Source: Bradyrhizobium sp. 1 (lineage in GTDB: Bacteria > Pseudomonadota > Alphaproteobacteria > Rhizobiales > Xanthobacteraceae). From it: a DNA stretch of 64,000 nt. The position numbers and the translations under genes are program-made. Location of the stretch: the NCBI RefSeq assembly GCF_023073315.1, contig NZ_JADPJH010000010.1, forward strand, positions 124,001 through 188,000, in the 5' to 3' direction. Shown piece after piece: positions 1,994 through 32,033 of the stretch (position 1 is its first letter; each line of letters opens with the position of its first letter). Under the pieces are notes generated by a model. The model searched no databases. It was not told the DNA's origin and saw only the letters and a program-made list of their open reading frames with translations.

Positions 1994-2403
1994 ACTTCGC
2001 CGACTATTGCATTTGGCTGAAAGCCGCCCACGTCGCCGCCGCGCTGCTTTTCGTCGGCGGCGTCGTTGCAACGTCGTTGACGCTCGCCTTGCTGCCGACG
2101 ATGCCTGGAGACAGCGCGCCATTCGTTACGGGCATGCGCCGTTACGACCGGTGGGTGACAGTTCCGGCAATCATCGTGGTCTGGCTGTTCGGAACGGGAC
2201 TTGCCGTATCCGGGGCATGGTTCGGCCAGGGCTGGCTCAGCGCCAAGCTTGGCTTCGTTGTGCTGTTGTCAGGCCTGCACGGCGTCCAGAGCGGTCGGCT
2301 TCGGAGGATAGAAGCGGGCGCCTCACCCGCGATGTCGAGATCCCTGCCGTTCGTTCTCTTCGCCGCGATTGCTATCGCGGTTCTCGCTGTCGCAAAGCCG
2401 TGA
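1990..2403 (+). CDS. CopD/HemJ-like small membrane protein
   Basis: This 137-residue protein has four predicted membrane helices: LKAAHVAAALLFVGGVV near the N-terminus, an alanine- and valine-rich second helix, LGFVVLLSGLHG, and a C-terminal FVLFAAIAIAVLA. A His in the first helix and a His after the third are spaced as in the CopD/HemJ superfamily, whose members carry heme or copper. It overlaps the DUF3817 gene by four bases. Its last codons run into a repeated copy of the 3' end of the downstream CitE-like gene, so the TGA stop lies at the very edge of that repeat. Exact function is not known. Confidence 0.65.
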   Translation: MNFADYCIWLKAAHVAAALLFVGGVVATSLTLALLPTMPGDSAPFVTGMRRYDRWVTVPAIIVVWLFGTGLAVSGAWFGQGWLSAKLGFVVLLSGLHGVQSGRLRRIEAGASPAMSRSLPFVLFAAIAIAVLAVAKP

Positions 2404-2493
2404 GAGCCTCAACCCTTCCCCATCGCCGCAATCGCATCCGCGATCTCGATCGTCCGCCGCGCCATATCCGCGTGCAGGCGCTCCAACGGGTCT
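2401..2493 (-). pseudogene. Duplicated 3' end of the CitE-like lyase gene
   Basis: These 93 bases match 3068-3160, the 3' end of the intact CitE-like gene plus eight bases after its stop, with only two differences. On the minus strand the copy still reads LERLHADMARRTIEIADAI followed by the same stop. No start codon or upstream part of the lyase is present, so it is a gene-end fragment. It forms a direct repeat with the intact gene and brackets the small exported-protein gene at 2698-2937. Apart from this fragment, nothing recognisable is seen in 2404-2697. Confidence 0.85.
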
Positions 2494-2697
2494 GTTCGCT
2501 CTGCTCGCACAAGGCGAAGTGCGATCGCGACCTCGCCGACGGCACCGCTGCGGAGAATTCCCACGGCTATTGCGGCAACGCCTCGACGCTGGAATCGCTC
2601 GATCGTGCAGGCGTCGCGCCGCACTGAGCGATCTGCAAATCGAATCGCCCGCACGAGGCGGGCGATCGATGCTCTGAACCAGGGAACGAGACTGAGC

Positions 2698-2937
2698 TTA
2701 GCGACCGTAGAACATCTTGTTGCAGCGGCCGGTGTTTTCCGCCACGTACGGGCCGCGCATTTGGGGGCGCATCGCCTGCCCGCGCTGGTTCACGCCCTGC
2801 ACGCAATTGACATAGCCTGTATTGTTGGCCCAGCGAAAATCGGTGGTGTAGGCGTGCGAGCTGGAGGTGGAACCGACCAGCGAGCCGAAGCCGAGGATGG
2901 CAGCGAGGGCGAAAAGCGCGATGCGGGAGGTCGTCAT
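2698..2937 (-). CDS. Small exported protein of unknown function (79 aa)
   Basis: The ATG at 2937 gives a clear signal peptide (MTTSRIALFALAAILGFGSL, cleavage likely after SSSHA). A mature part of about 50 residues has two Cys (YVNCVQGV and GRCNKMF) that could form a disulfide. Longer in-frame starts up to 3000 would bury the signal peptide and are not favoured. The family is not recognised. The gene sits alone between the two direct-repeat copies of the CitE-like gene 3' end, so it may be cargo of that duplication. Confidence 0.6.
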   Translation of the reverse strand: MTTSRIALFALAAILGFGSLVGSTSSSHAYTTDFRWANNTGYVNCVQGVNQRGQAMRPQMRGPYVAENTGRCNKMFYGR

Positions 2938-3075
2938 GGTTGTTATCCGGTTTGTTGGCTGCACCATGCAGCGCGTGAACGAGACAATGCTCGATTTCAC
3001 CGCGCTGGAATGTGCGTGACATCACAAAGCGGAAGGTCAACGCGCAGAATGCGCGGTCGCACCGTAGTGAGAGCC

Positions 3076-3957
3076 TCAACCCTTCCCCATCGCCGCAATC
3101 GCATCCGCGATCTCGATCGTCCGCCGCGCCATGTCGGCGTGCAGGCGCTCGACCATGGCACCATCCAGCCGGATCGCACCGCGCGAGACGTTCTCCGGCA
3201 ATTCGAACGCCGCGATGATTTTTCGCGCGCGCGCGACTTCTTCTTCGGGCGGCGTGAAGATGGCGTTGCAGGCGTCGATCTGCGAGGGATGGATCAGCGT
3301 CTTGCCGTCGAAGCCGAGGTCGCGGCCCTGTGCGCATTCGGTAGCAAAACCGTCGGAATTGGCGATGTCGCTATAGGGGCCGTCGAGGATTTCGAGGCCA
3401 TGAGCGCGCGTTGCCAGGATGCAGTGGGTGATCATCGAGAGCATCGCGGCGCGGCCCGGCAGCATCTTGATGCGCGTCTCGCGCGAGATGTCGTTCGGAC
3501 CGAACACGAAGCCCAACAGGCGCGTCTTCGGATCGCTCCCGGCGGCGGCCAGCTCCTCGGCATGGAGCACGGCGCGCGCGGTCTCGATCATCGCCCAGAC
3601 CTTGACGGTCGGCGCGGCGCCAAGCTCCGCGAGGCGGCTACCGATCGTCTGGAGATCTTCGACACTTGAAACTTTTGGAACCAGGATGCCGTCCGGAGAA
3701 GCCTTGGCGGCCATCGCGACGTCGTCGGCCCACCAGGGCGTATCGAGGCCGTTGGTGCGGATCAGGATCTCGCGCTTGCCAAACCCCTTGTCCGCGATCG
3801 CGGCGGCGATGCCGTCACGCGCCACCCCTTTGAGGTCAGGGGCGACGGAATCCTCGAGATCGAGAATCAGGCCGTCAGCGGCGAGATTCCGTGCCTTTTC
3901 CAGCGCACGGGGATTGGAGCCGGGCATGAACAGATGGCTGCGGCGCGGGCGGGTCAT
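3076..3957 (-). CDS. CitE-like CoA ester lyase (HpcH/HpaI aldolase/citrate lyase beta family)
   Basis: This 293-residue TIM-barrel protein shows family motifs: RSHLFMPGSNPRALEKA at the start, DGLILDLEDSVAPD with the acidic metal and substrate residues, WAMIETARAVLHAEE, and LGFVFGPNDISRET. Members cleave or form beta-hydroxyacyl-CoA esters such as malyl-CoA or citramalyl-CoA with Mg2+, or act as the corresponding thioesterases; sequence alone does not settle the substrate. The ATG at 3957 fits the family N-terminus, and the upstream extension is not conserved-looking. Its 3' end is repeated at 2401-2493. It is divergent from the carbonic anhydrase gene. Confidence 0.88.
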   Translation of the reverse strand: MTRPRRSHLFMPGSNPRALEKARNLAADGLILDLEDSVAPDLKGVARDGIAAAIADKGFGKREILIRTNGLDTPWWADDVAMAAKASPDGILVPKVSSVEDLQTIGSRLAELGAAPTVKVWAMIETARAVLHAEELAAAGSDPKTRLLGFVFGPNDISRETRIKMLPGRAAMLSMITHCILATRAHGLEILDGPYSDIANSDGFATECAQGRDLGFDGKTLIHPSQIDACNAIFTPPEEEVARARKIIAAFELPENVSRGAIRLDGAMVERLHADMARRTIEIADAIAAMGKG

Positions 3958-3993
3958 GCAAGCATTCCTTCCGGTTTCCTCGAACTTACTCTG

Positions 3994-4043
3994 GAGCATG
4001 ATCCCGGAAAAGCGTGAGGCGGTTTTCCGAAAGGATCATGCTC
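3994..4043. repeat. 50-base intergenic palindrome (Bradyrhizobium REP-like)
   Basis: Outer arms GAGCATGATCC and GGATCATGCTC are exact inverted repeats, and the inner arms CGGAAAAGC and GGTTTTCCG nearly pair. It lies between the divergent CitE-like and carbonic anhydrase genes. From general knowledge, this AAAGCGTGAGGCGGTTTTCCG type of palindrome is scattered between genes in Bradyrhizobium and Rhodopseudomonas. No gene is coded here. Confidence 0.75.
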
Positions 4044-4126
4044 AAACAACAAACCAAGCCGATAGCATCTGGCCTGCCTATTCGAAAGGCTTGTTCGCCC
4101 CTCTGGTCTATGGTTAGGCATAGGCC

Positions 4127-4777: not shown

Positions 4778-4780
4778 CCT

Positions 4781-6934: not shown

Positions 6935-7095
6935 GCGGTACCCCCCTGTTGTCATGCGGGAGTTCTCGGGGCGGCAATATCGCCCACGCGCTCACGCAAC
7001 CGCTAATTGTGATCCAGCGGAGCCGGCCACGCAACCGGGGGTAGATGACAAAAAGGACGGACCTGCGCGACATCTCGGCGCAGCAGCAAGCCCTG

Positions 7096-7221: not shown

Positions 7222-7232
7222 CACGGCGGCTA

Positions 7233-8267: not shown

Positions 8268-8383
8268 CGTTCACTCTCCGAGGAAAAAGCCCTTCCCTCA
8301 AGCTGACGCTTAAACAGGAAGAGCAGCGCTTCTATGCGAGAACCGGCCTCAAGACAAATTTGGACCATGCCTTAGGGACGTGG

Positions 8384-9706: not shown

Positions 9707-9726
9707 CACCTCGCAGCGACCGAATC

Positions 9727-9757: not shown

Positions 9758-9770
9758 TTTATGAGATCTT

Positions 9771-9883: not shown

Positions 9884-9886
9884 GAT

Positions 9887-20047: not shown

Positions 20048-20085
20048 TTCATTTACTCCTGATTGAATTTTGATTGAGCGCGAAA

Positions 20086-20424
20086 TCAAAGTGCCGCTGC
20101 GTCGGCCTCGCCGGTGCGGATGCGAACCGCATGGTCGAGGTTGATGACGAAGATCTTGCCGTCGCCGATCTGTCCGGTTTTCGCGGCGGACGTGATGGCG
20201 TCGATGGTCTTGTCGACCTGGTCGGAGGCGACAGCGACCTCGATCTTGATCTTGGGCAGGAAGCTCACGGCATATTCGGCGCCGCGATAGATTTCCGTAT
20301 GGCCCTTCTGGCGGCCATATCCCTTGACTTCCGTCACCGTGAGACCGTGAACGCCGATGGCGGTCAGGGCGTCACGGACTTCTTCCAGCTTGAATGGCTT
20401 GATAATCGCCATAACAATTTTCAT
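20086..20424 (-). CDS. glnK: Nitrogen regulatory PII protein GlnK
   Basis: This 112-residue trimeric PII signal protein has the uridylylated Tyr51 in [11 protein letters not shown] and the C-terminal KIFVINLDHAVRIRTGE. It binds ATP/ADP and 2-oxoglutarate and plugs AmtB when ammonium returns. GGGATAGG precedes the ATG at 20424. It is the first gene of a glnK-amtB operon behind a -24/-12 promoter and is a paralog of the protein at 23641-23979. Confidence 0.96.
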   Translation of the reverse strand: MKIVMAIIKPFKLEEVRDALTAIGVHGLTVTEVKGYGRQKGHTEIYRGAEYAVSFLPKIKIEVAVASDQVDKTIDAITSAAKTGQIGDGKIFVINLDHAVRIRTGEADAAAL

Positions 20425-20530
20425 GGGTCCTATCCCCGCTTGGGCCCGGTCCGGACGTGGCCGGGCGTTTCTCGACTGGTTCGCCACGAGGGAGAAAGTT
20501 CACTACGCGGGCACAGCCAGGACCCATAGA

Positions 20531-20546
20531 ATCAAATGCCGTGCCA
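20531..20546 (-). promoter_or_regulatory. Sigma-54 (-24/-12) promoter of glnK-amtB
   Basis: On the minus strand the site reads TGGCACGGCATTTGAT. This matches the consensus TGGCACG-N4-TTGCW at every fixed position except the C of the -12 GC, which is A. It lies about 107 bases before the glnK start. Nitrogen control by NtrC and RpoN is expected for this operon; NtrC sites were not identified with confidence. Confidence 0.72.
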
Positions 20547-20732
20547 GATCGGGCGGATTGCCTAACGGACTATGAAAACGGGTGTTTTCGCGTTTGACGC
20601 GTATTGCGGCGCAGTGCGCCATTACGTCGCGCTCATTACGTGATCACGTCTGGTCAAAAACTGGGCAAGACAGACTGCCGACACAATGCTGCTCATGCGT
20701 CGGGCAGACAAAAGGTATCCTATTATGGCGTG

Positions 20733-20791
20733 AGAGCCTTGCCGTGCTGCGAAATATCGCGCCCCTCGCGGTCCTGCTCATGAGATACGCG
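20733..20791 (-). pseudogene. Fragment of an amtB 3' end
   Basis: An ungapped 59-base alignment with the 3' end of the second amtB gene (22224-22282) gives 46 identities. On the minus strand the fragment still reads RVSHEQ...EG.DISQHGKAL before a TAA, against RVSREH...EGLDISQHGEAL in the intact protein. No upstream part of amtB is present. It lies downstream of clpP, so it and the intact amtB2 end bracket clpP, SRPBCC and ArsR. The rest of 20425-20872 holds only the glnK promoter region. Confidence 0.72.
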
Positions 20792-20872
20792 CAAATAGGC
20801 GCAACCGAATGGCCGGCTTGGGCAGGATGACGCTTGCCGGATGGTCTCCGGCTGGAGGCCGCTGTCGGCCCA

Positions 20873-21475
20873 TCAGGCAGCGTCGCGCTCCGCGAACACC
20901 CTGTCGATCAGCCCCCATTCGACCCCCTGCTGCGCGGTCATGAAGTGGTCGCGATCCAGGGTCCGTTCCACCTCCTCCTCGCGGCGCCCGCAATGCCGCG
21001 CGTAGAGCCGGATCAGGCGCCGTTTGGTTTCCTGCATTTCGGTGGCGTGGATCAGGATGTCGGACGCCTGGCCCTGGAAGCCGCCGAGCGGCTGATGCAC
21101 GTGCAAGCTCGCATTGGGCAGCGCGGCGCGGTGACCGGGCTCGCCGGCCATCAGCAGGAACGAGCCCATGGAGCGCGCGGTACCCATGCACAGCGTATGA
21201 ACCGGCGCCTTGATGAACTGCATGGTGTCGTACATCGCGAGGCCGGAGGTGACCACGCCGCCGTAGGAATTGATGTAGAGATTGATCGGCTTGTGCGGAT
21301 TCTCCGCCTCCAGGAACAGCAACTGCGCGCAGACGAGGCCCGACATCGCATCATTGACCTCGCCGTTGAGGAAGATGATGCGCTCGCGCAGCAGCCGCGA
21401 GTAGATGTCGAAGGACCGTTCACCGCGGGCGGATTGTTCCACAACCATAGGGACGAGCTGAAGCATGTCGCGCAT
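20873..21475 (-). CDS. clpP: ATP-dependent Clp protease proteolytic subunit, ClpP paralog
   Basis: This 200-residue ClpP has the catalytic triad Ser102 (GTARSMGS), His127 (LHVHQPLGG) and Asp176 (TLDRDHFM). [20 protein letters not shown] and [10 protein letters not shown] are typical. The elbow reads GTARSMG rather than the usual GQAASMG, and the protein is not next to clpX, so it is probably an accessory ClpP rather than the housekeeping one. It starts at the ATG at 21475. It lies in a segment flanked by amtB 3'-end repeats, which may indicate acquisition. Confidence 0.9.
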
Positions 21476-21516
21476 CGGCGACCTCCATGTCTGCGGGTGA
21501 TGAAGTCTTGCTGGTG

Positions 21517-21867
21517 TTAGGCGGCTGCGCGCATCAGGCAGCAATTGCTGTTGGCCGGCTTCGGCAGCGCTACGTCGCAGGCTTGCTGGATGATGCGAAA
21601 GCGGGTGCCGCCGTCCTCGTTCGGCTCGATCCGGAAGATGACGTGGCTTTCGCGATAGGGCGGCTCGGAATCACGAAGCCGGTAGCGCACCTCTTCGCCT
21701 GGAATCGATGATTCCGGTTCGGCGCCCGCGAGGTCGCAATCCGGCAGCCAGCGCTCGCGCAAAGCCGGAATGGTTACGGCGCGCCAGACCTTTGCCGGCG
21801 GCGCATCGAACTCATATTCGAGCACCAGCTTTGCGTCGGGACGATCCGTTTCGACTGCGTCGCTCAT
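21517..21867 (-). CDS. SRPBCC/AHSA1-like domain protein
   Basis: This 116-residue START-like protein begins [20 protein letters not shown] and continues with [20 protein letters not shown], the AHSA1 pattern of a hydrophobic-ligand-binding helix-grip fold. Its start overlaps the stop of the ArsR gene (ATGA), so the two are co-translated. ArsR-AHSA1 pairs are common in Rhizobiales and ligands are generally unknown. The C-terminus is short with two adjacent Cys. Confidence 0.82.
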
Positions 21868-22178
21868 TGATCCATGTCCTTGAGGAGATCGGCGAGTGCT
21901 TCCATGCGCTTCGGCCAATAGGCACGGTAGCGCGCAAGCCATGCCCCGATGGCGACGATTCCGTCGGGGTCGACTTCGTAATTCACAAAGCGGCCCTGCC
22001 GCTGCTCGCGCACCAGGCCAGCTGAGCGCAGCACCGCAAGATGCTGCGACATCGCGGGTTGGCTGATCTCCAATCCGTCGCGCAAGGTGCTGGCATTCAG
22101 GCTTCCGCCAGCGAGCTTCTCAAAGACCTTGCGGCGCGTCGGGTCGGCCAGCGCCTTGAAGATGTCGGCTTCGATCAT
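21864..22178 (-). CDS. ArsR-family transcriptional regulator
   Basis: This 104-residue winged-helix repressor begins ADIFKALADPTRRKVFEKL and has the recognition helix ISQPAMSQHLAVLRSAGLV. No metal-binding ELCVCDL motif is present, so it is the non-metal kind paired with an SRPBCC protein. It is the first gene of a two-gene operon and probably represses itself through the 26-base inverted repeat immediately upstream. Confidence 0.9.
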   Translation of the reverse strand: MIEADIFKALADPTRRKVFEKLAGGSLNASTLRDGLEISQPAMSQHLAVLRSAGLVREQRQGRFVNYEVDPDGIVAIGAWLARYRAYWPKRMEALADLLKDMDQ

Positions 22179-22181
22179 GAC

Positions 22182-22207
22182 AACACATAAGCACGTACTT
22201 ATGTGTT
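22182..22207. promoter_or_regulatory. Probable ArsR operator
   Basis: AACACATAAG and CTTATGTGTT are exact inverted repeats around CACGTA (24 of 26 positions symmetrical), three bases before the ArsR start codon. Its placement and symmetry fit autorepression. It also lies just beyond the stop of amtB2. Confidence 0.7.
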
Positions 22208-22216
22208 GCGCAAGCC

Positions 22217-23518
22217 TTATTGCAAAGCCTCGCCATGCTGCGAAATGTCGAGGCCTTCGAGTTCATGCTCGCGCGATACGCGGAGAGGCACGAACAGCGA
22301 GACCAGCTTGAGCAGCACAAAACTCACGCCCGCCGCCCAGACGAAAGTGACGGCGACCCCGTAAACCTGGATCAGAAGCTGCTGCGGGTGGCCCTCGATC
22401 AGGCCGGCCGTGCCGCCGATCGCGCTGGTGGCAAACACGCCGGCCAGCAAGGTACCGGTCAGGCCGCCGATGCCGTGGACGCCGAACACATCGAGCGAAT
22501 CGTCATAGTTGAAGCGGTGCTTCAGCCAGGTGCAGGCCCAATAGCAGACGGCACCGGCGATCATGCCGATGACGATGCCATGCCACGGCGCAACGAAGCC
22601 CGAGGCCGGCGTGATGGTGCCGAGGCCCGCGACCGCGCCGGAGATCATGCCGAGCACGGAGGGCTTGCGCCGGGTCGACCATTCGATCGCGCCCCAGGTC
22701 AGCGCGCCGGAGCAGGCCGCAAGATGCGTCGCGATGATCGCCAGCACCGCGCGCGAACTGGCCGCGCCCGCCGAGCCGCCATTGAAGCCGAACCAGCCGA
22801 CCCACAGCAGGCCGGTGCCCATCACCGCGAGCGACAGATCGAACGGCGAGAGATTTTCGGTGCCGTAGCCGTGACGGCGTCCCATCACCTTCGCCGCCAC
22901 GAGTCCGGCGGTGCCGGCCGACAAATGCACCACGAGGCCGCCGGCGAAATCCAGCACGCCCATGCTGGCGAGGAAGCCGCCGCCCCACACCCAATGCGCC
23001 AAGGGAATGTAGACGAAGATGAACCAGGCGACCGAAAACACGAGATAGGCGGAGAACCGCATCCGGTCGGCGACCGCGCCCGCGACCAGCGCCACTGTGA
23101 TGATCGCAAACGTCATCTGGTACAGCATGAACAGCGCCTCGGGAATCGTCTTCGCCGCCGGGTTGACGCTGTCCATGGTCATGCCCGCGAGGAACCAGCG
23201 GTCGAGCGTGCCGATCCACGGGCCATCGCCGACGAAGCAGAGCGAATAGCCGAACGCGACCCAGAGAATCGAGATGATCGTCACTGCGGCAAGGCTCTGC
23301 GCCATGGTCGCGAGCACATTCTTCTTGCGCACCATGCCGGAGTAGAACAGCGCCAGGCCCGGGATCGTCATCATCAGCACCAGCGCGGTGGCGACGATCA
23401 TCCAGGCGGTATCGGCGGTGTTGATCTCGGAGTTCGCGGCATGCGCCGGTGACGTCATGGCCCACACAAATCCGATTCCCGCAGCCATAGCAGCTGCGCG
23501 GCGCAACAATCTCGCCAT
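22217..23518 (-). CDS. amtB: Ammonium transporter AmtB, second copy
   Basis: This 433-residue Amt/Rh channel has a signal sequence (ending SPAHA), NTADTAWMIVATALVLMMTIPGLALF, FGVHGIGGLTGTLLAG and the two pore histidines. It lacks the central-loop insertion of the first copy. The ATG at 23518 follows GGGGGAA; the longer frame runs back into an intergenic palindrome and is rejected. Its 3' end is repeated in degenerate form at 20733-20791. The glnK paralog is 122 bases upstream, so the pair forms an operon. Confidence 0.95.
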   Translation of the reverse strand: MARLLRRAAAMAAGIGFVWAMTSPAHAANSEINTADTAWMIVATALVLMMTIPGLALFYSGMVRKKNVLATMAQSLAAVTIISILWVAFGYSLCFVGDGPWIGTLDRWFLAGMTMDSVNPAAKTIPEALFMLYQMTFAIITVALVAGAVADRMRFSAYLVFSVAWFIFVYIPLAHWVWGGGFLASMGVLDFAGGLVVHLSAGTAGLVAAKVMGRRHGYGTENLSPFDLSLAVMGTGLLWVGWFGFNGGSAGAASSRAVLAIIATHLAACSGALTWGAIEWSTRRKPSVLGMISGAVAGLGTITPASGFVAPWHGIVIGMIAGAVCYWACTWLKHRFNYDDSLDVFGVHGIGGLTGTLLAGVFATSAIGGTAGLIEGHPQQLLIQVYGVAVTFVWAAGVSFVLLKLVSLFVPLRVSREHELEGLDISQHGEALQ

Positions 23519-23583
23519 GTCGTTCCCCCAGCAGTGATGACGTCGCACGCTGTGGCGTCGTTGCCCGGTGCGATCGAAGCAGA

Positions 23584-23630
23584 GCGTTTTCGAGCGAAGC
23601 GGATACCGGTTCGCGTGAAAAAACGCGTCA
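23584..23630. repeat. Intergenic palindrome between glnK2 and amtB2
   Basis: The segment GCGTTTTCGAGCGAAGCGG-ATACCGGTTCGCGTGAAAAAACGCG contains GCGTTTT and AAAACGC arms and CGAAGCGG/CCGGTTCG inner arms. This is a frequent Bradyrhizobium intergenic repeat. Within an operon it could fold in the mRNA and tune amtB2 relative to glnK2. Confidence 0.65.
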
Positions 23631-23640
23631 AACAAAAAGT

Positions 23641-24132
<492 letters not shown>

Positions 24133-24232
24133 TCATCCATCACAATGCATTTTTCGCATGGATGCGGTAAACCCGAGCGGTGAACCTAAGCGTCCCTGCG
24201 GGTACATAAGTATGTTTGAGGGGGGACGCTTC

Positions 24233-25126
24233 ATGGCGAGTTGGTTCTACGCATCCGAGGGCAAGCAGCAGGGGCCCTATCCGGACGGGCAATTCCGCGA
24301 CTTGGTCGCGCAAGGCATTGTGCGCCCGGATACGCTGGTGTGGTCCGAGGGCATGGCCGGCTGGCAGAAAGCCGCCGAAATCCCCGGCCTGATCGGCGGC
24401 AGTGGTGCGCCCCCGATGATGCCCGCCGGCGGGCCGCCGATGATGGGCGGCGGCGGTTATGCGGGCGCGGCCGGCGGTGGACCGCTGGTGCCTCATTTCA
24501 GCGTGTTTGGTCTTCTCGGCCGCAGCATCGTGTTCGTGATCGGCACGATCCTGGTCATTCCGGCGCCGTGGGTCGCGGTCTGGTTCTACCAATGGATCAT
24601 GTCGCACATCCAGGTGCCGGGCCGGCCTAATTTCGGCTTTGCCGGCCAGCCGATGGACATCTGGTGGGCGTTCATGGCCAACGGGCTTCTGGCCTACGCC
24701 AGCTTCACCGGAATTTCGGTCGCGCCGCTCCTTGCGGTGGTCGTCAATGCCGTCCTGGCCTGGGTGATCATGCGTTGGATCGTCGCCAATCTCACCTCGA
24801 ATGGAGAGCGTCTGCCGGTCTCATTCCAGGGCAGCGCGATCGGCTATGTCGGCTGGTATCTCCTGATGATGATCTCGACCATCACCATCATCGGCTGGGC
24901 CTGGGTGATCGCGTTCTGGATGCGCTGGAATTGCCGGAACATCGAGGGCACGCGGCGCGAGGTCGTATTCAACGGCAGCGGCTGGCAGATCCTGTGGCGA
25001 TCGGTGGTGTTCTCGCTGGCCTCGAGCTTGATCATTCCGATCCCGTGGATGTTGCGCTGGTACGGCCGTTGGTTCGTGTCGCAATTTGCGCTCGTCGACC
25101 GCGGCGCTGCCGCTCGCAGCTTCTGA
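24233..25126 (+). CDS. GYF-domain multi-pass membrane protein
   Basis: Residues 1-50 form a GYF_2-type domain (ASWFYASEGKQQGPYPDGQF, then LVWSEGMAGWQKAAEIP), which usually binds proline-rich peptides. A Gly/Pro/Met-rich linker (about 52-83) leads to about six membrane helices resembling DUF898-like regions. GAGGGGGG precedes the ATG at 24233. The partner is unknown. It lies divergent from glnK2, and its stop codon is only four bases from a tesB 3'-end fragment. Confidence 0.8.
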   Translation: MASWFYASEGKQQGPYPDGQFRDLVAQGIVRPDTLVWSEGMAGWQKAAEIPGLIGGSGAPPMMPAGGPPMMGGGGYAGAAGGGPLVPHFSVFGLLGRSIVFVIGTILVIPAPWVAVWFYQWIMSHIQVPGRPNFGFAGQPMDIWWAFMANGLLAYASFTGISVAPLLAVVVNAVLAWVIMRWIVANLTSNGERLPVSFQGSAIGYVGWYLLMMISTITIIGWAWVIAFWMRWNCRNIEGTRREVVFNGSGWQILWRSVVFSLASSLIIPIPWMLRWYGRWFVSQFALVDRGAAARSF

Positions 25127-25130
25127 TTAT

Positions 25131-25190
25131 CTTCGCTCGCGCACGGAGCCTTCCTGCGCGAGCGAAGACCACCGCTGGGGCGTCCGGCTT
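25131..25190 (-). pseudogene. Fragment resembling the tesB 3' end, also a hairpin
   Basis: Bases 25135-25159 match 31181-31205, the 3' end of tesB, at 24 of 25 positions, and similarity continues weakly to about 25190 (tesB 31240) with one gap. On the minus strand it reads LAQEGSVRERR then stop, against VAQEGSVRERRT in TesB. The same bases form a 13-base perfect hairpin (25131-25143 with 25155-25167), so terminator use for the GYF gene is possible although no T run follows. With tesB itself it brackets the IclR catabolic region. Confidence 0.6.
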
Positions 25191-25217
25191 ACGGGCGACC
25201 CGGCCGCCCACGACCGA

Positions 25218-25997
25218 TCAAGCGTGAATCGCCAATTGTGCGGCGATCGCTTCCGCGACCGCGCGCATGTCGCGCGCAAGCGCCAGCGAGGTCGGGCGAT
25301 CCAGCTGGCTGCCGAGGCCGACGGCTGCGACCGTGTGCGAGATCGTCCCCTTCGCGTTCAGGACGGGCACGGCGACGATCGTCACGCCGGCAATGTAATT
25401 GCCGCGATCGATGCTAAAACCCTGCTTGCGCACCTGATCGACCTCCTTGCGCCAGGCATCATAGCTCGGCGCGTTGTGCCAGCGCAGCAGGCGAAAGCGC
25501 CTCTCGATCTCCTTGTCCGGCTGGCCGCTGAAGGCGGCGACACAACGGCCCGTGGCGCTGATCAACGCGGGAAAGCGGCTTCCGATGTCGACATGAAGCC
25601 GCACCGGCGCCTGGCTGCGCGCCAGCGCGACGACGATCATGTTGTCCAGGTCCGGCACCTCGACACCGATCGCCATGACGCCGTAGCGGCTTGAGAGCTC
25701 TTCGAGCTTCGGCCGCATCAGGCTGGGAAAGTCGGCAGCATTCTCGAGCACGGCGCGCGCCAGCGGCAGCATGCCGACGCCAAGGCTGTAGCGCTTGGTC
25801 TGCGGATCGACCTGCAGCAAATCCTCTGCCAGCAGCGCGCGCACGATGTGCAACGCCGTGCTCGGCACCAAATCGAGAGTCTCCGCAATCGCCTTGAGCC
25901 CCTGCGGCGTGGGGCTGCGGCTGAGCAGGCGGAGGATGGCGACGGCGCGCGTGACCGCGGGGACGGCACGGACGCGGGGTGATTTGGCATTCGGCAT
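25218..25997 (-). CDS. IclR-family transcriptional regulator
   Basis: This 259-residue regulator has an N-terminal winged helix (AVTRAVAILRLLSRSPTPQG, LDLVPSTALHIVRALLAEDLL) and an IclR effector domain (about 85-255) with TGRCVAAFSG and RGNYIAGVTIVAVPV. It is divergent from the acyl-CoA ligase operon and probably controls it in response to a substrate or CoA intermediate. The ATG at 25997 has no clear ribosome binding site because an inverted repeat abuts it; an upstream ATG pair, 14 codons earlier, is an alternative. Confidence 0.9.
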   Translation of the reverse strand: MPNAKSPRVRAVPAVTRAVAILRLLSRSPTPQGLKAIAETLDLVPSTALHIVRALLAEDLLQVDPQTKRYSLGVGMLPLARAVLENAADFPSLMRPKLEELSSRYGVMAIGVEVPDLDNMIVVALARSQAPVRLHVDIGSRFPALISATGRCVAAFSGQPDKEIERRFRLLRWHNAPSYDAWRKEVDQVRKQGFSIDRGNYIAGVTIVAVPVLNAKGTISHTVAAVGLGSQLDRPTSLALARDMRAVAEAIAAQLAIHA

Positions 25998-25999
25998 GA

Positions 26000-26013
26000 T
26001 TGTATCGGTACAA
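26000..26013. promoter_or_regulatory. Probable IclR operator, proximal to iclR
   Basis: TTGTA-N4-TACAA, the same half-sites as at 26121-26134, two bases before the start codon of the IclR gene. Binding here would block iclR expression. Confidence 0.6.
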
Positions 26014-26118
26014 CAGCGGCCGCGAGCCAACAACATCATCTCATCGCAGGCGCGCCGGTACGGCTTTGATCTTTCCTGCCGCGCCGCATGCGCAGCAGCG
26101 TTCGCCGCGATCTTTGAT

Positions 26119-26136
26119 AATTGTATATATACAATT
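26119..26136. promoter_or_regulatory. Probable IclR operator, operon side
   Basis: AATTGTATATATACAATT is an 18-base perfect palindrome containing TTGTA-N4-TACAA, about 47 bases before the ligase start codon. It shares half-sites with the repeat next to iclR, as expected for a regulator controlling both divergent transcripts. Confidence 0.68.
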
Positions 26137-26182
26137 GACAGTGCTATTTGACAATTAGCGCGTCGTCGGTATCTTGCCGGCC

Positions 26183-27742
26183 ATGACCAAGCTGACCGAC
26201 TACACAAGCTACGCAGCCGCGCAGACGATCTTCTCCCCGGAGAAGCTCTGGGAATTGTTCGACGGCAATCGCGCGCAGCTGAACATCGCGCATGAATGCA
26301 TCGACCGGCACGCCGGCCGTTCCAATCCGGCCGTGATCGTCGTTCGCGCGGACGGCCCGGACGAGGTGCTGGGCTTTGCCGAGCTCGCGGACGCGTCCTC
26401 GCGCTTCGCGCATGATCTGGTGAGCCGCGGGATCAAGGCCGGCGATCGCGTCGCGATCATGCTCGAACCCTCGCGCGCCTTCTACGTGTCGGTGTTCGGC
26501 ACCATGAAGGCCGGCGCCATCGCGGTGCCACTGTTCACGCTGTTCGGCCCTGATGGCGTCAAGCTGCGCGTCGACGATTGCAAGCCGCGGCTGATCGTGA
26601 CCAATGCGGAGAAGGCGCCGCTGCTCGCCGGGATCGGCACCGAGGTGGTGGTCGCCGACGACGCTTTCCTGAACGAGTTGAATCGCTTCGCGCCGCACTT
26701 CACGCCCGATACGGCGGCCGACGCGATGGCCCTGTTCCAATACACCTCGGGCACGACGCGCGAACTGCCCGAGGCGGTCAAGCACACGCATCGTTCGATC
26801 GTGACGCTGATGGTGGCGGCACTGTACGGCACCGGCCTGCGCCCGGGCGATCGCTTCATCTGCCCGTCGTCGCCGGCATGGGGACACGGGCTCTGGCACG
26901 GCACACTGGCGCCGCTGGCGCTCGGCATCACCATCGGGGCCTATGCCGGCAAGTTCAATCCGGAGCGGCTGCTGGCTGCGCTCGAGCAGCACCGGTTCAC
27001 CAACATCTCGGCGGCGGCCACGCATTACCGCATGATGCGGAATTCGGGTGCCGCGCCGCGCTACCGCTACGTGCTGGAGAAATTGTCGTTCACCGGCGAA
27101 CCGATCGACAGCGAGACGGCGACATTCGTCAACGACACCTTCGGCCGCCAGGTGTGCAGCATGTACGGCACCACCGAGATCGGCGTGATCCTGGTGAGTT
27201 ATCCCGGCGCGCGCGATTTCGTCGTCAAGCCGGGATCCCTGGGCAAGCCGATCCCCGGCGGCCGCGTCGAAGTGCAGGATGCCGAAGGGCGGCCGTGCGC
27301 GACCGGTGTGACCGGCGAGCTGAAGGTCTGGCGCCGTGACACGTGGATCGCGACCAAGGACCTCGGGCGCATCGACGAGGACGGGTACTTTTATCACGGC
27401 GGCCGGGCCGATGACGTCATCATCTCCGCCGGCTGGACCATGAGCGCGGTCGAAATCGAGGATGCGATCCTCAAGCATCCGCAGGTGCGCGAGGCCGCGG
27501 CCATCGGCGTCCCCGATCCGCTGCGCGGCCAGGTGGTGAAGGCCTTCGTGGTCACGGAACGGCCGGGCGATGCGGCCTTCGAGCACGAGATTCAGAACGT
27601 CGTGCGCCAGCGCCTCAGCCATCACGAATATCCGCGCCTCGTCAGCTTCGTCACAGAGCTGCCGAAGACGCCGGCCGGCAAGGTCAATCGCAAGGTGCTG
27701 CGGGACCGCGAAGCAATCAAGCAATCAGAAGCAACAAGCTAG
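26183..27742 (+). CDS. AMP-forming acyl-CoA synthetase
   Basis: This 519-residue ANL-family ligase makes an acyl-AMP and then an acyl-CoA. The ATP loop reads FQYTSGTTRELPEAVKH, so the usual glycine and lysine (TSGTTGLPKG) are replaced. The aromatic/Thr motif MYGTTEIG, the YFYHGGRADDVI hinge region and the catalytic C-terminal Lys in PAGKVNRK are kept. The type is close to benzoate or medium-chain acid ligases; the acid is unknown. The ATG at 26183 is preferred to the TTG at 26174. It is the first gene of a four-gene operon. Confidence 0.9.
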   Translation: MTKLTDYTSYAAAQTIFSPEKLWELFDGNRAQLNIAHECIDRHAGRSNPAVIVVRADGPDEVLGFAELADASSRFAHDLVSRGIKAGDRVAIMLEPSRAFYVSVFGTMKAGAIAVPLFTLFGPDGVKLRVDDCKPRLIVTNAEKAPLLAGIGTEVVVADDAFLNELNRFAPHFTPDTAADAMALFQYTSGTTRELPEAVKHTHRSIVTLMVAALYGTGLRPGDRFICPSSPAWGHGLWHGTLAPLALGITIGAYAGKFNPERLLAALEQHRFTNISAAATHYRMMRNSGAAPRYRYVLEKLSFTGEPIDSETATFVNDTFGRQVCSMYGTTEIGVILVSYPGARDFVVKPGSLGKPIPGGRVEVQDAEGRPCATGVTGELKVWRRDTWIATKDLGRIDEDGYFYHGGRADDVIISAGWTMSAVEIEDAILKHPQVREAAAIGVPDPLRGQVVKAFVVTERPGDAAFEHEIQNVVRQRLSHHEYPRLVSFVTELPKTPAGKVNRKVLRDREAIKQSEATS

Positions 27743-27757
27743 AGGAAGGAACGCCAC

Positions 27758-28897
27758 ATGCTGGACAAGATCGAAAGCAGATTTCCGAAGATCACCGAAG
27801 AGGGCCTCGACGATCTGCGCAAGCGCATCGGCGTCACCATCGGCGTGACCGCCGAGCCCTGGTGCTACGAGGCGACGCGCGACAACATCCGTCACTACGC
27901 GCACGGCATCGGCGACGACAACCCGCTCTGGTGCGATCCCGATTACGCCGCCAAGTCCAGCTATGGCGGCATCGTCGCGCTGCCGAGCTTCCTGTTCTCG
28001 ACCAGCCGCATCGTGTCCGGCTATGTCGGCGGCATGCCCGGCGTCCACGCCATGTGGTCGGGCGCGGACTGGACCTGGCACAAGGCTGTCAGGCGCAACG
28101 ACGTGATTTCGACCGAGGCAAAGTTGAAAGACCTCGTCGAGCATCAGACGCGCTTCGCGGGTCGGGCGATCCAGCAGACCTATCACGTCGATTTCTTCAA
28201 CCAGCAGGGCGACCTCGTCGCCGAAGCGGATAGCTGGTGCTTCCGGACCGAGCGCGACCATGCGCGCGACCAGGGCACCAAATACAGCGAGGTCAAGGCC
28301 CGCGCGCCGCGCCGCTACAGCGACGAGGAGCTCGCCGCAGCCTACAAGCACTATGCCGCCGAGCGGATTCAGGGTTCGCGGCCGCGCTATTGGCAGGACG
28401 TCACCGAAGGCGAGGCGCTGCCGGTGATGCTGAAGGGCCCGATGACGGTCACCGGCTTCATCGCCTATGCACAAGGCTGGGGCGGTCTCTACATCCGCGC
28501 CAACAAGCTCGCCTGGAAGCTGCAGGACGCCCACCGCGGTCTCGGCATTCCGAACCGTTTCAATATCCCCGACTGTCCCGAGCGCGTGCATTGGGAAGAG
28601 GAATTCGCGCTCGAAGTCGGCGCGCCCGGCGCCTATGATTACGGTCCGGAACGCTGCTCCTGGCTGACCCATCACCTCACCAACTGGATGGGCGATGACG
28701 GTTTCCTGCGCCGCGCGACCTGCAAGATCCGCCGGCACAATCCCGAGGGCGACATCCTGTTCATCAAGGGCAAGGTGAAGCGCAAGTTCGTCGAGAACGG
28801 CCGTCACCTCGTCGAGATCGAACAGGAAGCGCGCAACCAGGACGACGAGCTCTCCGTACTCGGCACCGGTATCGTGGAATTGCCAAGCCGTAGCTAA
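27758..28897 (+). CDS. MaoC/FAS1-like acyl-CoA dehydratase, two-hotdog protein
   Basis: This 379-residue protein has an N-terminal FAS1-like dehydratase half (TRDNIRHYAHGIGDDNPLWCD) and a second hot-dog half (VMLKGPMTVTGFIAYAQGWGG, then VHWEEEFALEVGAPGAYDYG). The Asp-x4-His type catalytic pair of MaoC hydratases is not obvious in the second half. Members hydrate or dehydrate 2-enoyl-CoA or C4-mesaconyl-CoA-like thioesters. It lies 15 bases after the ligase gene, so it is co-transcribed and probably acts on the ligase product. Confidence 0.82.
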   Translation: MLDKIESRFPKITEEGLDDLRKRIGVTIGVTAEPWCYEATRDNIRHYAHGIGDDNPLWCDPDYAAKSSYGGIVALPSFLFSTSRIVSGYVGGMPGVHAMWSGADWTWHKAVRRNDVISTEAKLKDLVEHQTRFAGRAIQQTYHVDFFNQQGDLVAEADSWCFRTERDHARDQGTKYSEVKARAPRRYSDEELAAAYKHYAAERIQGSRPRYWQDVTEGEALPVMLKGPMTVTGFIAYAQGWGGLYIRANKLAWKLQDAHRGLGIPNRFNIPDCPERVHWEEEFALEVGAPGAYDYGPERCSWLTHHLTNWMGDDGFLRRATCKIRRHNPEGDILFIKGKVKRKFVENGRHLVEIEQEARNQDDELSVLGTGIVELPSRS

Positions 28898-28921
28898 CAG
28901 TAACCAACTGGGCGAACGAGC

Positions 28922-30139
28922 ATGCCCGCAACCGAACTCACGCGCGGAGCGGTGACCGGCCTCAAGGTCGTCGATCTCTCGCGCGTGCTGGCGGGGCCGC
29001 TGTGCACGCAGATGCTGGCCGATCATGGCGCCGATGTCGTCAAGATCGAGCCACCGTCGGGCGATGAGACCCGCGGTCTCGGGCCACCGTTCGATGCGGC
29101 CGGACAGGCCGCGTATTTCGGCGCCGTCAACCGCGGCAAGCGCGGCATGGCGCTCGACCTCTCGCGCACTGAAGGGTGCGCGGTGCTCGACGCGCTGCTG
29201 AAGGACGCCGATGTGCTGGTGGAGAATTTCCTGCCCGGCACCATGGAGCGCTGGGGGCTCGGCTACGAGGCGCATTTATCCGCGCGCTTTCCGCGCTTGA
29301 TCTACTGCGCGATCTCGGGCTTCGGCGCTGACGGGCCGCTCGGCGGATTGCCCGGCTATGATGCCGTGCTCCAGGCCATGTGCGGCCTGATGAGCATCAA
29401 CGGGACGGAAGGTTCGGGCGCCACGCGCGTCGGCGTTCCCATCGTCGATTACGTCACCGGCTACAATGCGCTCACCGGCGTGTTGCTGGCGCTCGCGGCG
29501 CGCGAACGAACCGGACGGGGGCAGCGTGTCGAGGTGACGCTGTTCGACACCGCGCTTGGCCTGCTGGTCCCGCACGCGGCGAACTGGATCTGCTCTGGCA
29601 ACGTGCCCGGCCGCCTCGGTAGCGCCCATCCCAACATCGCGCCTTACGACAAGTTCGCGGCGGCCGACGGCGAGATATTTCTCGGCATCCTCAACGACGG
29701 CCAGTTCCGCCGCTTCTGCCAGAAGGTGAGACGCGGCGACCTGCTCGACGACCCACGTTTCCGCACCAACGCCGATCGGCTCCGTCACGTGGCAGCGCTT
29801 CGCACCGAGCTGGAGCGGACGCTGGCCGGATTCAAGTCCGATGATCTCTGCCGCGACTTGATGCAGGCCGGCGTCCCCGCCGGCGTGGTCAACACGGTGC
29901 CGCAGGCGTTCGCGCAAGCCCATGTCGCCCACCGCGACATGCTGGTTGAAAGCGAGGGCCATCGCGCGCCCGGCATTCCCGTGAAGCTGGCGCAGACGCC
30001 TGGGAGCGTGGAGCGACGGCCGCCCCGCTTTGGCGAGCATGCCCGCGACATTCTGGCGGGGGCCGGTTTTGACGAGGCGATGATCGACCGCCTGATCGAC
30101 GCAGGCATCGTCATGCCGCAAAGGAAGGACACCGCGTAA
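28922..30139 (+). CDS. CaiB/BaiF family (class III) CoA-transferase
   Basis: This 405-residue family III transferase has LKVVDLSRVLAGPLCTQMLADHGADV at the N-terminus, ENFLPGTMERWGLGYE, and the catalytic Asp176 in VGVPIVDYVTGY. These enzymes move CoA between carboxylates through an aspartyl anhydride. Together with a ligase and a dehydratase it suggests degradation of a dicarboxylic or hydroxy acid via CoA thioesters. It lies 24 bases after the dehydratase gene. Confidence 0.92.
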   Translation: MPATELTRGAVTGLKVVDLSRVLAGPLCTQMLADHGADVVKIEPPSGDETRGLGPPFDAAGQAAYFGAVNRGKRGMALDLSRTEGCAVLDALLKDADVLVENFLPGTMERWGLGYEAHLSARFPRLIYCAISGFGADGPLGGLPGYDAVLQAMCGLMSINGTEGSGATRVGVPIVDYVTGYNALTGVLLALAARERTGRGQRVEVTLFDTALGLLVPHAANWICSGNVPGRLGSAHPNIAPYDKFAAADGEIFLGILNDGQFRRFCQKVRRGDLLDDPRFRTNADRLRHVAALRTELERTLAGFKSDDLCRDLMQAGVPAGVVNTVPQAFAQAHVAHRDMLVESEGHRAPGIPVKLAQTPGSVERRPPRFGEHARDILAGAGFDEAMIDRLIDAGIVMPQRKDTA

Positions 30140-30193
30140 CGATAAGAAGGCGACCAGGAAAACAATCAAAATAAATAATCGGAGGAAACGATC

Positions 30194-31156
30194 ATGCTGA
30201 AATCCGCGAGATGGGCCGTGGGATTGCTGGCCCTGCTATGGAGTTGCGCAAGCCTTGCGCAAACGTTTCCGACCAAGCCGGTCAGGATCATCGTTCCCTA
30301 CCAGGCGGGCCAGGGCACCGACGTCGTGGCACGATATCTGGCCGACCATTTGTCGCGCACGCTCGGCCAGCGCTTCTATGTCGAGAACAAGCCCGGTGCC
30401 GGCGGCAATATCGGTGCCGAGCAGGCGGCGCATTCGGAGCCCGACGGCTACACGCTGCTGATGGGCACCAACGCCACCCAGACCATGAACGAGTTCATGT
30501 ATCCTTCGATGGGTTTCGCGCCTGACAAGGACTTTGCTCCGATCATCCTGGTCGGCAAGCTGCCGCTGGTGATCACGGCCGGTCCGTCGTTTGCCGGAAA
30601 CGACGTGGTCGATCTGATCGCTGCGGCCAAGACGAAGCCCGACAAGATCGACGTCGCCCTGCCGAGCACGACGGCGCGTGTCATCTTCGAGTTTCTCAAG
30701 GATGTGACCGGCGCGCCGATGTTCGGCGTTCCCTACAAGGGCTCGGCAACGGCGATGACCGACGTGCTCGGCGGACAGGTGCCGCTGCTGATCGATACGG
30801 TGACCGCGGTGCGCACCCAGATCGAGGATGGCAAGCTGAAGGCGCTCGGCGTCACCGTGCTGAAGCCGAGCGAGTTGTTGCCGGGCGTGAAGCCGGTCGC
30901 CGAGCAGGGCGTGCCTGATTTCGAGATGGCGGGATGGAATGCCTTCTACGCGCCGCGCGACACGCCGCAGGCCATCATCGAGCTTCTGAACGGCGAGTTC
31001 GCCAAGGCGCTCGCCCTGCCCGAGACGCGGAAGCGGCTGCAAGAGCTGGGCTTTGATCCGGCCGGCGGAACGCCGATGGACCTCGCCCGGTTCGAGACGC
31101 GGGAACGGCTCAAATGGGGGCCAGTGATCAAGGCGACGGGTTTGCAGGGCGGCTAA
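30194..31156 (+). CDS. Bug/TctC-type periplasmic substrate-binding protein
   Basis: This 320-residue protein has a signal peptide (through SCASLAQ) and a Bug-family fold: FPTKPVRIIVPYQAGQGTDV, VENKPGAGGNIGAE, PDGYTLLMGTNAT, FGVPYKGSATAMTDVLGG and LKALGVTV. Such proteins bind carboxylates and usually hand them to TctAB carriers; none is coded nearby, so it may use a carrier elsewhere or serve as a sensor partner. GGAGGAAA precedes the ATG at 30194. It is the last gene of the operon, convergent with tesB. Confidence 0.93.
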   Translation: MLKSARWAVGLLALLWSCASLAQTFPTKPVRIIVPYQAGQGTDVVARYLADHLSRTLGQRFYVENKPGAGGNIGAEQAAHSEPDGYTLLMGTNATQTMNEFMYPSMGFAPDKDFAPIILVGKLPLVITAGPSFAGNDVVDLIAAAKTKPDKIDVALPSTTARVIFEFLKDVTGAPMFGVPYKGSATAMTDVLGGQVPLLIDTVTAVRTQIEDGKLKALGVTVLKPSELLPGVKPVAEQGVPDFEMAGWNAFYAPRDTPQAIIELLNGEFAKALALPETRKRLQELGFDPAGGTPMDLARFETRERLKWGPVIKATGLQGG

Positions 31157-31169
31157 CGTTGCAGCGAGA

Positions 31170-32033
31170 TCAGGTTCTGCGCTCGCGCACCGAGCCTTCC
31201 TGCGCCACTGAGGCCACCAGCGTACCATCCGGCTTGAAGATGAGGCCGCGGCTCAGGCCGCGGCCGCCTTGCGCGCTCGGCGAATCCTGCGCGTAGAGCA
31301 GCCATTCGTCGGCGCGGAACGGGCGGTGGAACCACATCGCGTGATCGAGGCTCGCCGGCATCATGCGCTTGTCGAACAGCGTGCGGCCATAGCGCGCCAT
31401 GATCGCGTCGAGCAGCGAAAAGTCCGAGGCGTAGGCGAGCGCGCACAGATGCAGCGCAGGATCATCAGGAAGTTTTGCGGCCGTGCGGATCCAGATATGG
31501 ATGCGGCCGTCGTCGACCTTCTGGCCGAAATAGCGGCCGATCTCGACGGGGCGCAATTCGATTGGGCGATCCATCTCATAGTAGCGGCGGATGAACTCCG
31601 GCATCTCCTTGAACTGCGGCTGCTTTGCAACCTCCTCCGCGGTCAGCTTTTCCGGCGGCGGCACGTCCGGCATCTTGTCCTGGTGATCGAAGGCGCTTTC
31701 CTCCTCGGCGTGGAATGACACCATGATCGAGAAGATCGCATTGCCGTGCTGGATCGCGGTGACGCGGCGGGTCGAATAGCTCTTGCCGTCGCGCAGCCGT
31801 TCGACCTGGTAGATGATCGGAACCTGCGGGTCGCCGGGCAGGATGAAATAGCAATGCAGCGAATGCGGCAGCCGGCCTTCGACGGTCCGGCAAGCCGCAA
31901 CCATCGCCTGCCCGATCACCTGGCCGCCAAAGACCCGCTGCCAGTCCGTCTTCGGGCTGTTGCCGCGAAACAAATTCACCTCGAGCTGTTCGAGGTCGAG
32001 GATCGAAATCAGGTCGAACAGGCTCTTGGACAT
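31170..32033 (-). CDS. tesB: Acyl-CoA thioesterase II
   Basis: This 287-residue double hot-dog thioesterase hydrolyses acyl-CoA to the free acid. FGGQVIGQAMVAACRTV and RLRDGKSYSTRRVTAIQHG belong to the first half, and YASDFSLLDAIM with the catalytic Asp, then SLDHAMWFHRPFRADEWLLY, to the second. It ends VAQEGSVRERRT, and this 3' end is partly repeated at 25131-25190. In related genomes it sits between ubiH and glnK-amtB. It is divergent from the hydroxylase gene at 32184. Confidence 0.95.
   Translation of the reverse strand: MSKSLFDLISILDLEQLEVNLFRGNSPKTDWQRVFGGQVIGQAMVAACRTVEGRLPHSLHCYFILPGDPQVPIIYQVERLRDGKSYSTRRVTAIQHGNAIFSIMVSFHAEEESAFDHQDKMPDVPPPEKLTAEEVAKQPQFKEMPEFIRRYYEMDRPIELRPVEIGRYFGQKVDDGRIHIWIRTAAKLPDDPALHLCALAYASDFSLLDAIMARYGRTLFDKRMMPASLDHAMWFHRPFRADEWLLYAQDSPSAQGGRGLSRGLIFKPDGTLVASVAQEGSVRERRT

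Follow-up and report, generated by a model that had tools for sequence, protein, structure and literature searches.

Three genes followed by a second copy of their 3' end

The window analyzed here is a stretch of 64,000 nucleotides from Bradyrhizobium sp. 1 (contig NZ_JADPJH010000010.1, positions 124,001 to 188,000). It is part of a 571-kb contig of a genome that we call G000, which has C28 and C15 among its contigs. On the minus strand of the window three genes, a citE-like lyase gene, the ammonium transporter gene amtB2 and the thioesterase gene tesB, are each followed by accessory DNA (the cargo) and then by a same-strand copy of the gene's last codons (the stray). A first-pass annotation had described this layout, and all three direct repeats were found where it placed them, downstream of an intact gene and with cargo between. 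The features of each locus are given below in the direction of transcription of the anchor gene.

Locus 1
3076..3999, minus: citE-like HpcH/HpaI aldolase/lyase gene, intact, the anchor (PF03328; NCBIfam citE below its cut-off)
3068..3150, minus: 3' end of intact citE, upstream member of the repeat (81/83 identical to 2401-2483)
2698..3000, minus: cargo 1 (block Y), a small gene of 100 amino acids and no known family (no Pfam/NCBIfam match)
2487..2628, plus: truncated C-terminal end of the DUF6455 gene that flanks the locus on the right; forms the left side of the seam (83-88% to DUF6455 regions in G000 and other genomes)
2401..2483, minus: citE stray, right side of the seam, putative resident gene end (repeat identity 81/83)
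558..2408, no strand assigned: block B, the allele after the stray (q662-2518 matches G022 s2-1866 at 88%, there directly after intact citE)

Locus 2
22217..23635, minus: amtB2, ammonium transporter, the anchor (PF00909)
20873..22178, minus: cargo 2, an ArsR-type regulator, an SRPBCC/AHSA1-like protein and ClpP (Pfam; at this site in 26/41 genomes)
20733..20834, minus: amtB2 stray, contiguous with the native amtB2-glnK1 spacer (core 46/59)
20086..20487, minus: glnK1 (P-II), right neighbor (PF00543)

Locus 3
31170..32033, minus: tesB, acyl-CoA thioesterase II, the anchor (PF02551, NCBIfam tesB; newcomer-type at most informative sites)
26174..31156, plus: cargo 3, genes for an AMP-binding ligase, a FAS1-type dehydratase, a CoA-transferase III and TctC, divergent from IclR
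25218..26207, minus: cargo 3, IclR regulator (part of cargo 25218..31156)
25130..25190, minus: tesB stray, recognizable in its last ~40 bp, contiguous with resident downstream DNA (24900-25190 match to G011)
24077..25126, plus: GYF-domain gene, convergent right-flank neighbor of tesB (PF14237)

Repeat identities were recounted without gaps. The citE repeat, previously put at 91/93, came to 85/93 (2401-2493 against 3068-3160), with 81/83 in the well-matched part at 2401-2483, while the amtB2 value of 46/59 was reproduced. At tesB the core (25131-25155) gave 23/25 rather than 24/25 and positions 25130-25159 gave 28/30; the lower identity reported outside the core was confirmed (39/61 over 25130-25190). 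In 100 shuffles of the 6.1 kb downstream, the best match to the tesB 30-mer was 21/30. The IclR genes had been read as one minus-strand catabolic operon; in fact IclR lies on the minus strand and the four other genes diverge from it on the plus strand.

Comparison of tesB with its relatives

With the stray region and the gene as queries, we searched 72 genomes of the genus, drawn from a larger group. The cargo was contiguous with tesB only in G002 and G068, in a block of 90% identity; G012 has related genes elsewhere. In the cargo-less genome G011, on the other hand, positions 24900-25190 matched as one piece at 87%, from inside the end of tesB onward, so that the empty site with a single 3' end expected by the first-pass annotation does occur.

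In an alignment of tesB ends, the stray resembled G011 and G022 while the end of the intact gene resembled G002 and G068, which by summed identity over tesB were also the two nearest of 39 genomes. We then defined informative sites as those at which G002 and G068 agree against 29 genomes without the tesB cargo. G000 had the G002/G068 state at 24/32 of these sites, compared to 0-4 of 32-34 in six controls, and along the gene the newcomer state was found at 3/3, 3/5, 13/15 (positions 400-600), 4/7 and 1/2 sites. These data indicate that the intact tesB is the newcomer and that the stray is the resident end: the resident gene appears to have been kept from the breakpoint on, its upstream sequence being replaced by homologous sequence, which would hide any loss of resident DNA there. 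Newcomer-type sequence so far upstream of a 40-bp stray suggests that the crossover took place in or before tesB and that a second, separate junction formed in the last codons.

The stray had previously been described as a copy of the gene's end. We now regard it as the resident end because cargo-less relatives at tesB and amtB2 have a single 3' end that runs into the sequence found after the stray, and because citE of G022 runs into block B in the same manner.

Among 40 genomes with a full tesB, fragments of the genome's own gene that reach the 3' end (E 1e-3) were found only in G000 and G034. A stray in a relative without the cargo had been named as evidence against joint arrival of cargo and gene end, and G034 does carry a fragment without the IclR cargo. 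However, other DNA intervenes there, and the DNA that comes after the fragment is found immediately behind tesB in G036 (85%); we therefore consider G034 to contain another such event. Joint arrival is still supported.

Three minor points concern this locus. We discarded a lost paralogue as the source of the stray, as cargo-less relatives show the same end as that of their own tesB. In L093 (G042:C224), where the full tesB lies on another contig, a match to the 3' end of the GYF gene comes after each of two tesB 3' pieces; this is probably another stacked tesB locus. Finally, the ~55 bp between the IclR stop codon and the recognizable stray (25163-25217) looked different in the alignment from G002/G068 as well as from cargo-less genomes.

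citE is followed by stacked alternatives in part of the genus

In G000 the order is citE, block Y, DUF6455 piece, citE fragment, block B, block C and intact DUF6455, the full copy of which lies outside the window at C28:122258-122719. The DUF6455 piece, overlooked in the first-pass annotation, ends 3 bp short of the citE stray. Block B directly follows citE in G022, where block Y is found further on, behind that genome's own citE fragment; in L154 block Y directly follows citE. Blocks Y and B are one variable region present in two versions, which G000 and G022 carry in different order. Searching for one donor of the G000 citE cargo produced no decisive result.

We extended the comparison to 40 citE loci and the best 80 of 111 further loci, the latter nearly all from Bradyrhizobium. 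After exclusion of G016 (no full citE) and of 19 loci duplicating another, 100 distinct loci with a full gene remained. Twenty citE 3' fragments were present in 18/100 genomes, all downstream of the gene and on its strand. They begin 0.6-5.6 kb downstream, all end within 13 bp of the stop codon, and two consist of two pieces; their 5' breakpoints are scattered over gene positions 423-897. The G022 fragment has an E value of 3e-4 against its own gene and was retained because the window citE matches it at 2e-6; leaving G022 out gives 17/100. A further ten rows of weaker E value (3e-4 to 1e-3), which fell on both strands and in upstream and internal positions, were attributed to chance and not counted.

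Twelve of the 20 fragments lead into DNA that elsewhere directly follows intact citE, one of them (L182) on a 41-bp match. Likewise, in 13/18 genomes (one on 36 bp only) the DNA just after intact citE also directly follows citE in another genome. The 400 bp after the gene and after the fragment were alike in 0/20 cases, and 32 allele clusters directly after citE were distinguished among the 100 genomes. The loci are stacked alternative versions of variable regions.

Next to seven of the 20 fragments, at a distance of 0-9 bp, lies a truncated part of the right-flank gene DUF6455 or of the DNA beyond it. Four distinct seams of this kind were readable, and each showed an abrupt switch from right-flank sequence to citE. 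Read by eye, the exact bases shared at these seams were 0 (G000), 4 (G013), 5 (G066) and 9 (L130); the printed BLAST overlaps were -3, 10, 5, and 9 and 23, respectively. The L113 seam, with a printed overlap of 33, was not clearly readable, and no citE match was found at the seam of G022. L130 has the same citE seam twice, both fragments starting from gene position 823.

Dispersed repeats unrelated to the adjoining gene had been named as an observation that would speak against this layout. The citE fragment occurs in only 2 places in its own genome at E 1e-3 (40/81 first-look candidates scored), and a dispersed repeat was rejected as its origin. Downstream of citE in L047, L048 and L130, 3/13 scanned cargo proteins match the caspase-domain family Peptidase_C14 and CHAT; judged by length, these are probably the proteins of 571-602 amino acids.

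The amtB2 event looks old

At amtB2 we compared 41 fetched genomes, grouped by identity only. Positions 20480-20834 align in one piece to cargo-less genomes (for example, G062 at 82%). Of 15 loci without intact cargo, 14 have a gap of 245-259 bp between amtB2 and glnK1, providing further empty sites that may be primary or may have been restored by deletion between the repeats; the other, G026, keeps a ClpP remnant in a gap of 523 bp. The distance between ClpP and glnK1 is 320-386 bp in 18 cargo-bearing genomes of one group. The fragment was identified by comparison with the genome's own gene in 10/18 of these, and in the other 8 it was judged by the extra length and a partly displayed alignment. 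In six cargo-bearing genomes of another group the distance is 253-255 bp, without the extra length, and glnK1 was not found in the G010 stretch. From this distribution of gaps and fragments the amtB2 event looks old and common to many genomes, which agrees with the earlier suggestion that the loci differ in age.

The window carries glnK-amtB twice in tandem at 18599-23979 (DNA identity in parts, 78-79% for glnK and 65-75% for amtB). The second glnK is present in 40/41 genomes, the exception being the G010 stretch.

Further loci in the genome and in the genus

A scan of the own genome for gene 3'-end repeats flanking variable genes, as the first-pass annotation had proposed, covered 1.225 of 7.99 Mb and 1046 genes called by a simple codon-usage gene finder, and recorded partial gene copies lying no more than 12 kb away. 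Pairs of paralogues were removed by hand, as was the reciprocal row of the AEC copy, and 176 internal rows were kept outside the counts. Six non-paralogous partial 3'-end copies lay downstream on the same strand: those of citE, amtB2, tesB and DUF6455 (the same seam as citE), and two at new loci. Other placements comprised one weak 35-bp match upstream, besides the reciprocal AEC copy, and one 23-bp match on the opposite strand. The 15 rows for 5' ends had no common direction, and 9 of them were 25-29 bp long. The two new loci are:

C15:165365-166348, no strand assigned: gene that we take to be an AEC-type transporter (PF03547); empty site in G022
C28:500977-501528, no strand assigned: gene without a Pfam match

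A similar bias was seen in 152 fetched loci, which comprise 2.32 Mb and 2046 gene calls; many are homologous and thus not independent. There, 49 copies of 3' ends were same-strand downstream, 6 same-strand upstream and 3 opposite, and the 58 copies of 5' ends were directionless (21, 19 and 18, respectively).

Partial copies of the AEC gene were found as 31 rows in 15/32 genomes with the full gene (13/32 if G016 and G021, with weak or 5' rows only, are set aside). All 31 are on the same strand and 30 are downstream; 29/31 start at gene position 600 or later, the 5' breakpoints of the 3'-part rows ranging over 600-949, and 20/31 end within 30 bp of the stop codon. Of 23 fragments tested, 14 are followed by DNA that in another genome stands immediately after the intact gene, a fifteenth match (G007, to its own genome) being dropped. 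The 400 bp after gene and fragment were alike in 0/23, with 23 allele clusters among 32 genomes. The richest stack seen is L276 (G047), with seven AEC partial-copy rows over 16 kb downstream of the intact gene. L284 (G060:C45:40000-59900) holds three AEC 3' fragments and no full AEC gene in its 19.9 kb.

At C28:500977 the gene is single in the examined stretches of G008 and G022, and the G000 fragment matches its end there at 90% and 88%, unbroken into the following sequence. The fragment, which starts at position 391, is 88-90% like G008, G055, G011 and G022 and 77-78% like G068 and G058. The intact gene shows the opposite affinities over its whole length, 86% to G068 and G058 compared to 69-70% to G008 and G022. 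We therefore take the relic to be the resident and the whole intact gene to be the newcomer, as at tesB. Genomes with the remainder of the cargo include G005 and G046. In L288, the homologous locus of G005, two versions of the gene's 3' part lie close together, upstream of the shared cargo.

Origin of the fragments

A second 3' end could also arise by tandem duplication in one genome, with one of the two intervals later exchanged for that of another strain. To compare donors, we ranked the nearest genes for 14/20 citE fragments and 18/31 AEC rows, most short ones being left out. The genome's own gene came first for 5/14 and 9/18, as duplication would have it, and the citE repeat of G066 (99% over 498 bp) is likewise what a duplication would leave. 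In the remaining cases (9/14 and 9/18), however, another genome's gene ranked above or level with the own gene, which for the citE fragment of G013 was only at rank 64 of 100. Since another species' gene is thus as near or nearer in about half of the cases compared, duplication within one genome is unlikely to be the whole story. Moreover, the intervals after gene and fragment differ in 20/20 and 23/23 cases, many such intervals occur alone after the gene elsewhere, and two steps would be required each time. We consider this explanation improbable.

Gene, cargo and 3' repeat form the general layout of integrase islands, and the first-pass annotation had offered site-specific integrases that use and restore gene 3' ends, and have since been lost. 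The citE and AEC 5' breakpoints scatter over hundreds of bases, however, and do not define a fixed attachment core. No integrase or transposase was seen among the families listed for 50 cargo proteins (16/16 and 13/13 for 28; 25/31 for 12 more; 25/57 for all 50) or in the Pfam/NCBIfam results for the window cargo. Nor was any of 22 PHROGs described as an integrase, many of them being undescribed; 5/18 citE genomes had no gene call. An integrase origin therefore strikes us as very improbable.

A probable mechanism: one homologous and one illegitimate junction

The most likely explanation, to which we assign a probability of about 0.6, is that the strays are resident gene ends left by one-sided import, with homology in the gene and an illegitimate join in its last codons. 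Foreign DNA carrying the same gene and accessory genes would recombine with the resident gene by homology on one side, probably through RecA. As the seams suggest, the other side would be joined illegitimately into the last codons of the resident gene. The incoming DNA may be linear, as in homology-facilitated illegitimate recombination (HFIR), and the second junction may be made by end joining, perhaps by the Ku proteins of the genus. Matches to Ku were found in 40/40 genomes of the genus (1 to 10 each, 2 in G000), compared to 1/14 controls. Work in Sinorhizobium on end joining in the acquisition of heterologous DNA is cited in PMC10932983.

Selection would retain only those events that leave the anchor gene whole, and gene 3' ends would therefore become landing pads. 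Repeated events would stack alleles, the newest adjoining the gene, and old strays would drift and shrink. One homologous and one illegitimate junction would account for all observations, and the earlier idea of one general process common to the loci is supported. The linear HFIR route fits tesB and C28:500977 best: both have a newcomer-type intact gene, although the crossover point itself was not located. The 0-9 shared bases at the readable citE seams agree with an illegitimate junction of the HFIR kind, which has little shared sequence.

A Campbell-type integration, also raised in the first-pass annotation, has to be weighed against this. A linear fragment with the 3' part of the gene, cargo and part of the right-flank gene would be end-joined to a circle, which would enter the resident gene by a single crossover; the ends of the fragment would have met at the seam, and the stray would be a duplicate of the 3' part. 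Closure predicts just the kind of seam in which a right-flank piece is joined to a gene fragment. The repeated seam of L130, with both fragments from position 823, and the block shared by G013 and L118, which breaks near the gene end, also fit a circle. In Escherichia coli, single crossover of a trimmed circle was invoked for the duplications that made up most of 60 recombinants from cut DNA, and HFIR for 4 (PMC3240628), and a circle was proposed for Rhs arrays by Jackson et al. (PMC2935791). On the other hand, the newcomer tract of tesB spans most of the gene while the stray is only ~40 bp, so that a circle fits poorly there. The same holds for C28:500977, where the whole gene is newcomer-type and the fragment starts at 391. 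No full-gene duplicate was found among the 100 citE loci, and strays of 28-100 bp are short for efficient crossover. The circle thus remains a rival for citE and AEC; as a general explanation we regard it as unlikely, though less so than duplication.

Several observations weigh against one-sided import. At tesB, the left end of the newcomer tract was not located, only 4 informative sites lying upstream, of which 2 are newcomer-type; upstream ranks are mixed, with G068 or G002 first in 4/12 upstream windows too; and no stray is visible in G002 and G068, although both have the cargo. At citE in G000, no donor tract upstream of the breakpoint could be demonstrated, and the two copies are each other's nearest (73/75). 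The block after citE in G013 is 98% like that of L118, yet its last citE window is only 86% like L118, where a long homologous anchor would predict otherwise. Allele contiguity was absent for 8/20 citE and 9/23 AEC fragments, and 11/31 AEC rows end more than 30 bp from the stop codon. The C28:500977 repeat extends ~300 bp beyond the gene and so is more than a repeat of a gene end; G005 and G046, which have the cargo, are not the genomes nearest to the intact gene, and their relation to it is more complex. At amtB2 both copies are of one type, with no donor distinguishable, and G009 has the cargo without the fragment (268 bp). Finally, the fragments nearest to their own gene count on this side as well, because duplication, gene conversion or a same-species donor would also fit them.

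Relation to known systems

These loci resemble the C-terminal displacement arrays of Rhs and mafB genes (Jackson et al. 2009, PMC2935791), in which an intact gene is followed by same-strand fragments of varying length, each leading into different sequence, and older versions are pushed downstream. In those arrays the variable tip lies within the gene. Here, in contrast, citE, tesB, amtB and AEC keep their own stop codons and the variable part consists of whole neighboring genes; citE aligns to its last codons across genomes. Rhs fragments are also nearly identical to the adjoining gene, unlike the present ones, only some of which (5/14 and 9/18) have their own gene as the nearest. A further difference from Rhs/mafB is that truncated right-flank sequence is visible at some seams here.

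Immunity-gene arrays of type VI secretion systems (Kirchberger et al. 2017, PMC5361080) share with these loci one homologous anchor, a proposed illegitimate end, downstream displacement and no integrase, and were tentatively ascribed to HFIR. Retained immunity genes may protect their host, whereas no such selection is evident here, the cargo being metabolic, regulatory or of no known function. HFIR in competent bacteria (PMC3240628) likewise combines one homologous and one illegitimate junction, mostly with 3 to 10 shared bp, compared to 0-9 bp here. Events in the laboratory generally remove roughly as much DNA as they add, whereas our loci retain part of the resident gene end. For small variable segments in E. 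coli, HFIR was first proposed (PMC2884548) and later judged unlikely (PMC3240628); merodiploids formed by transformation depend on repeats (PMC3784515). Integrase-free hotspots at core genes (Oliveira et al. 2017, PMC5635113) also show rapid gene turnover between conserved neighbors with no recognized mobile elements. The model proposed for them is double homologous recombination, which replaces an interval, whereas the seams described here are one-sided and stack it.

Among the titles and abstract openings listed by keyword searches of the open PMC literature, outside which most subscription papers lie, displacement arrays appeared at toxin-type loci and none at housekeeping genes. Compared with that literature, these loci add an Rhs-like scar at housekeeping genes, one that recurs in the genus and at some sites shows both partners of the seam.

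The route by which chromosomes gain accessory genes in the absence of mobile elements is an open question. Double homologous exchange, the usual answer, leaves little scar. Seams are scars from which one can read the anchor gene and the breakpoint, and often also the succession of events and a relative of the donor type. With their help, one-sided imports could be counted across genomes and the role of Ku at the second junction tested genetically. One-sided import would account for the accumulation of new genes next to core genes where there is no integrase. It is possible, and we suggest it tentatively, that core genes serve as landing pads throughout the genus, one-sided uptake stacking gene sets newest first into a genus-wide stratigraphy by means of housekeeping recombination and Ku and without any mobile element.

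Additional observations

One citE locus, L152 (JAUEPE010000038.1, titled Frankia sp. RB7), has 92% protein identity to the window gene in its citE region and likely stems from a mislabeled or mixed assembly. In ten loci among L113-L167, the first 40-90 bp of a gene located upstream of citE (near 4.8-5.5 kb) are repeated close by, in many cases in both orientations, as if the start of that gene had been supplied by a short mobile or palindromic repeat. At G000:C28:233267-237462 (L201), three adjacent genes share a 25-bp sequence at their first codons, which is also found inverted close by.

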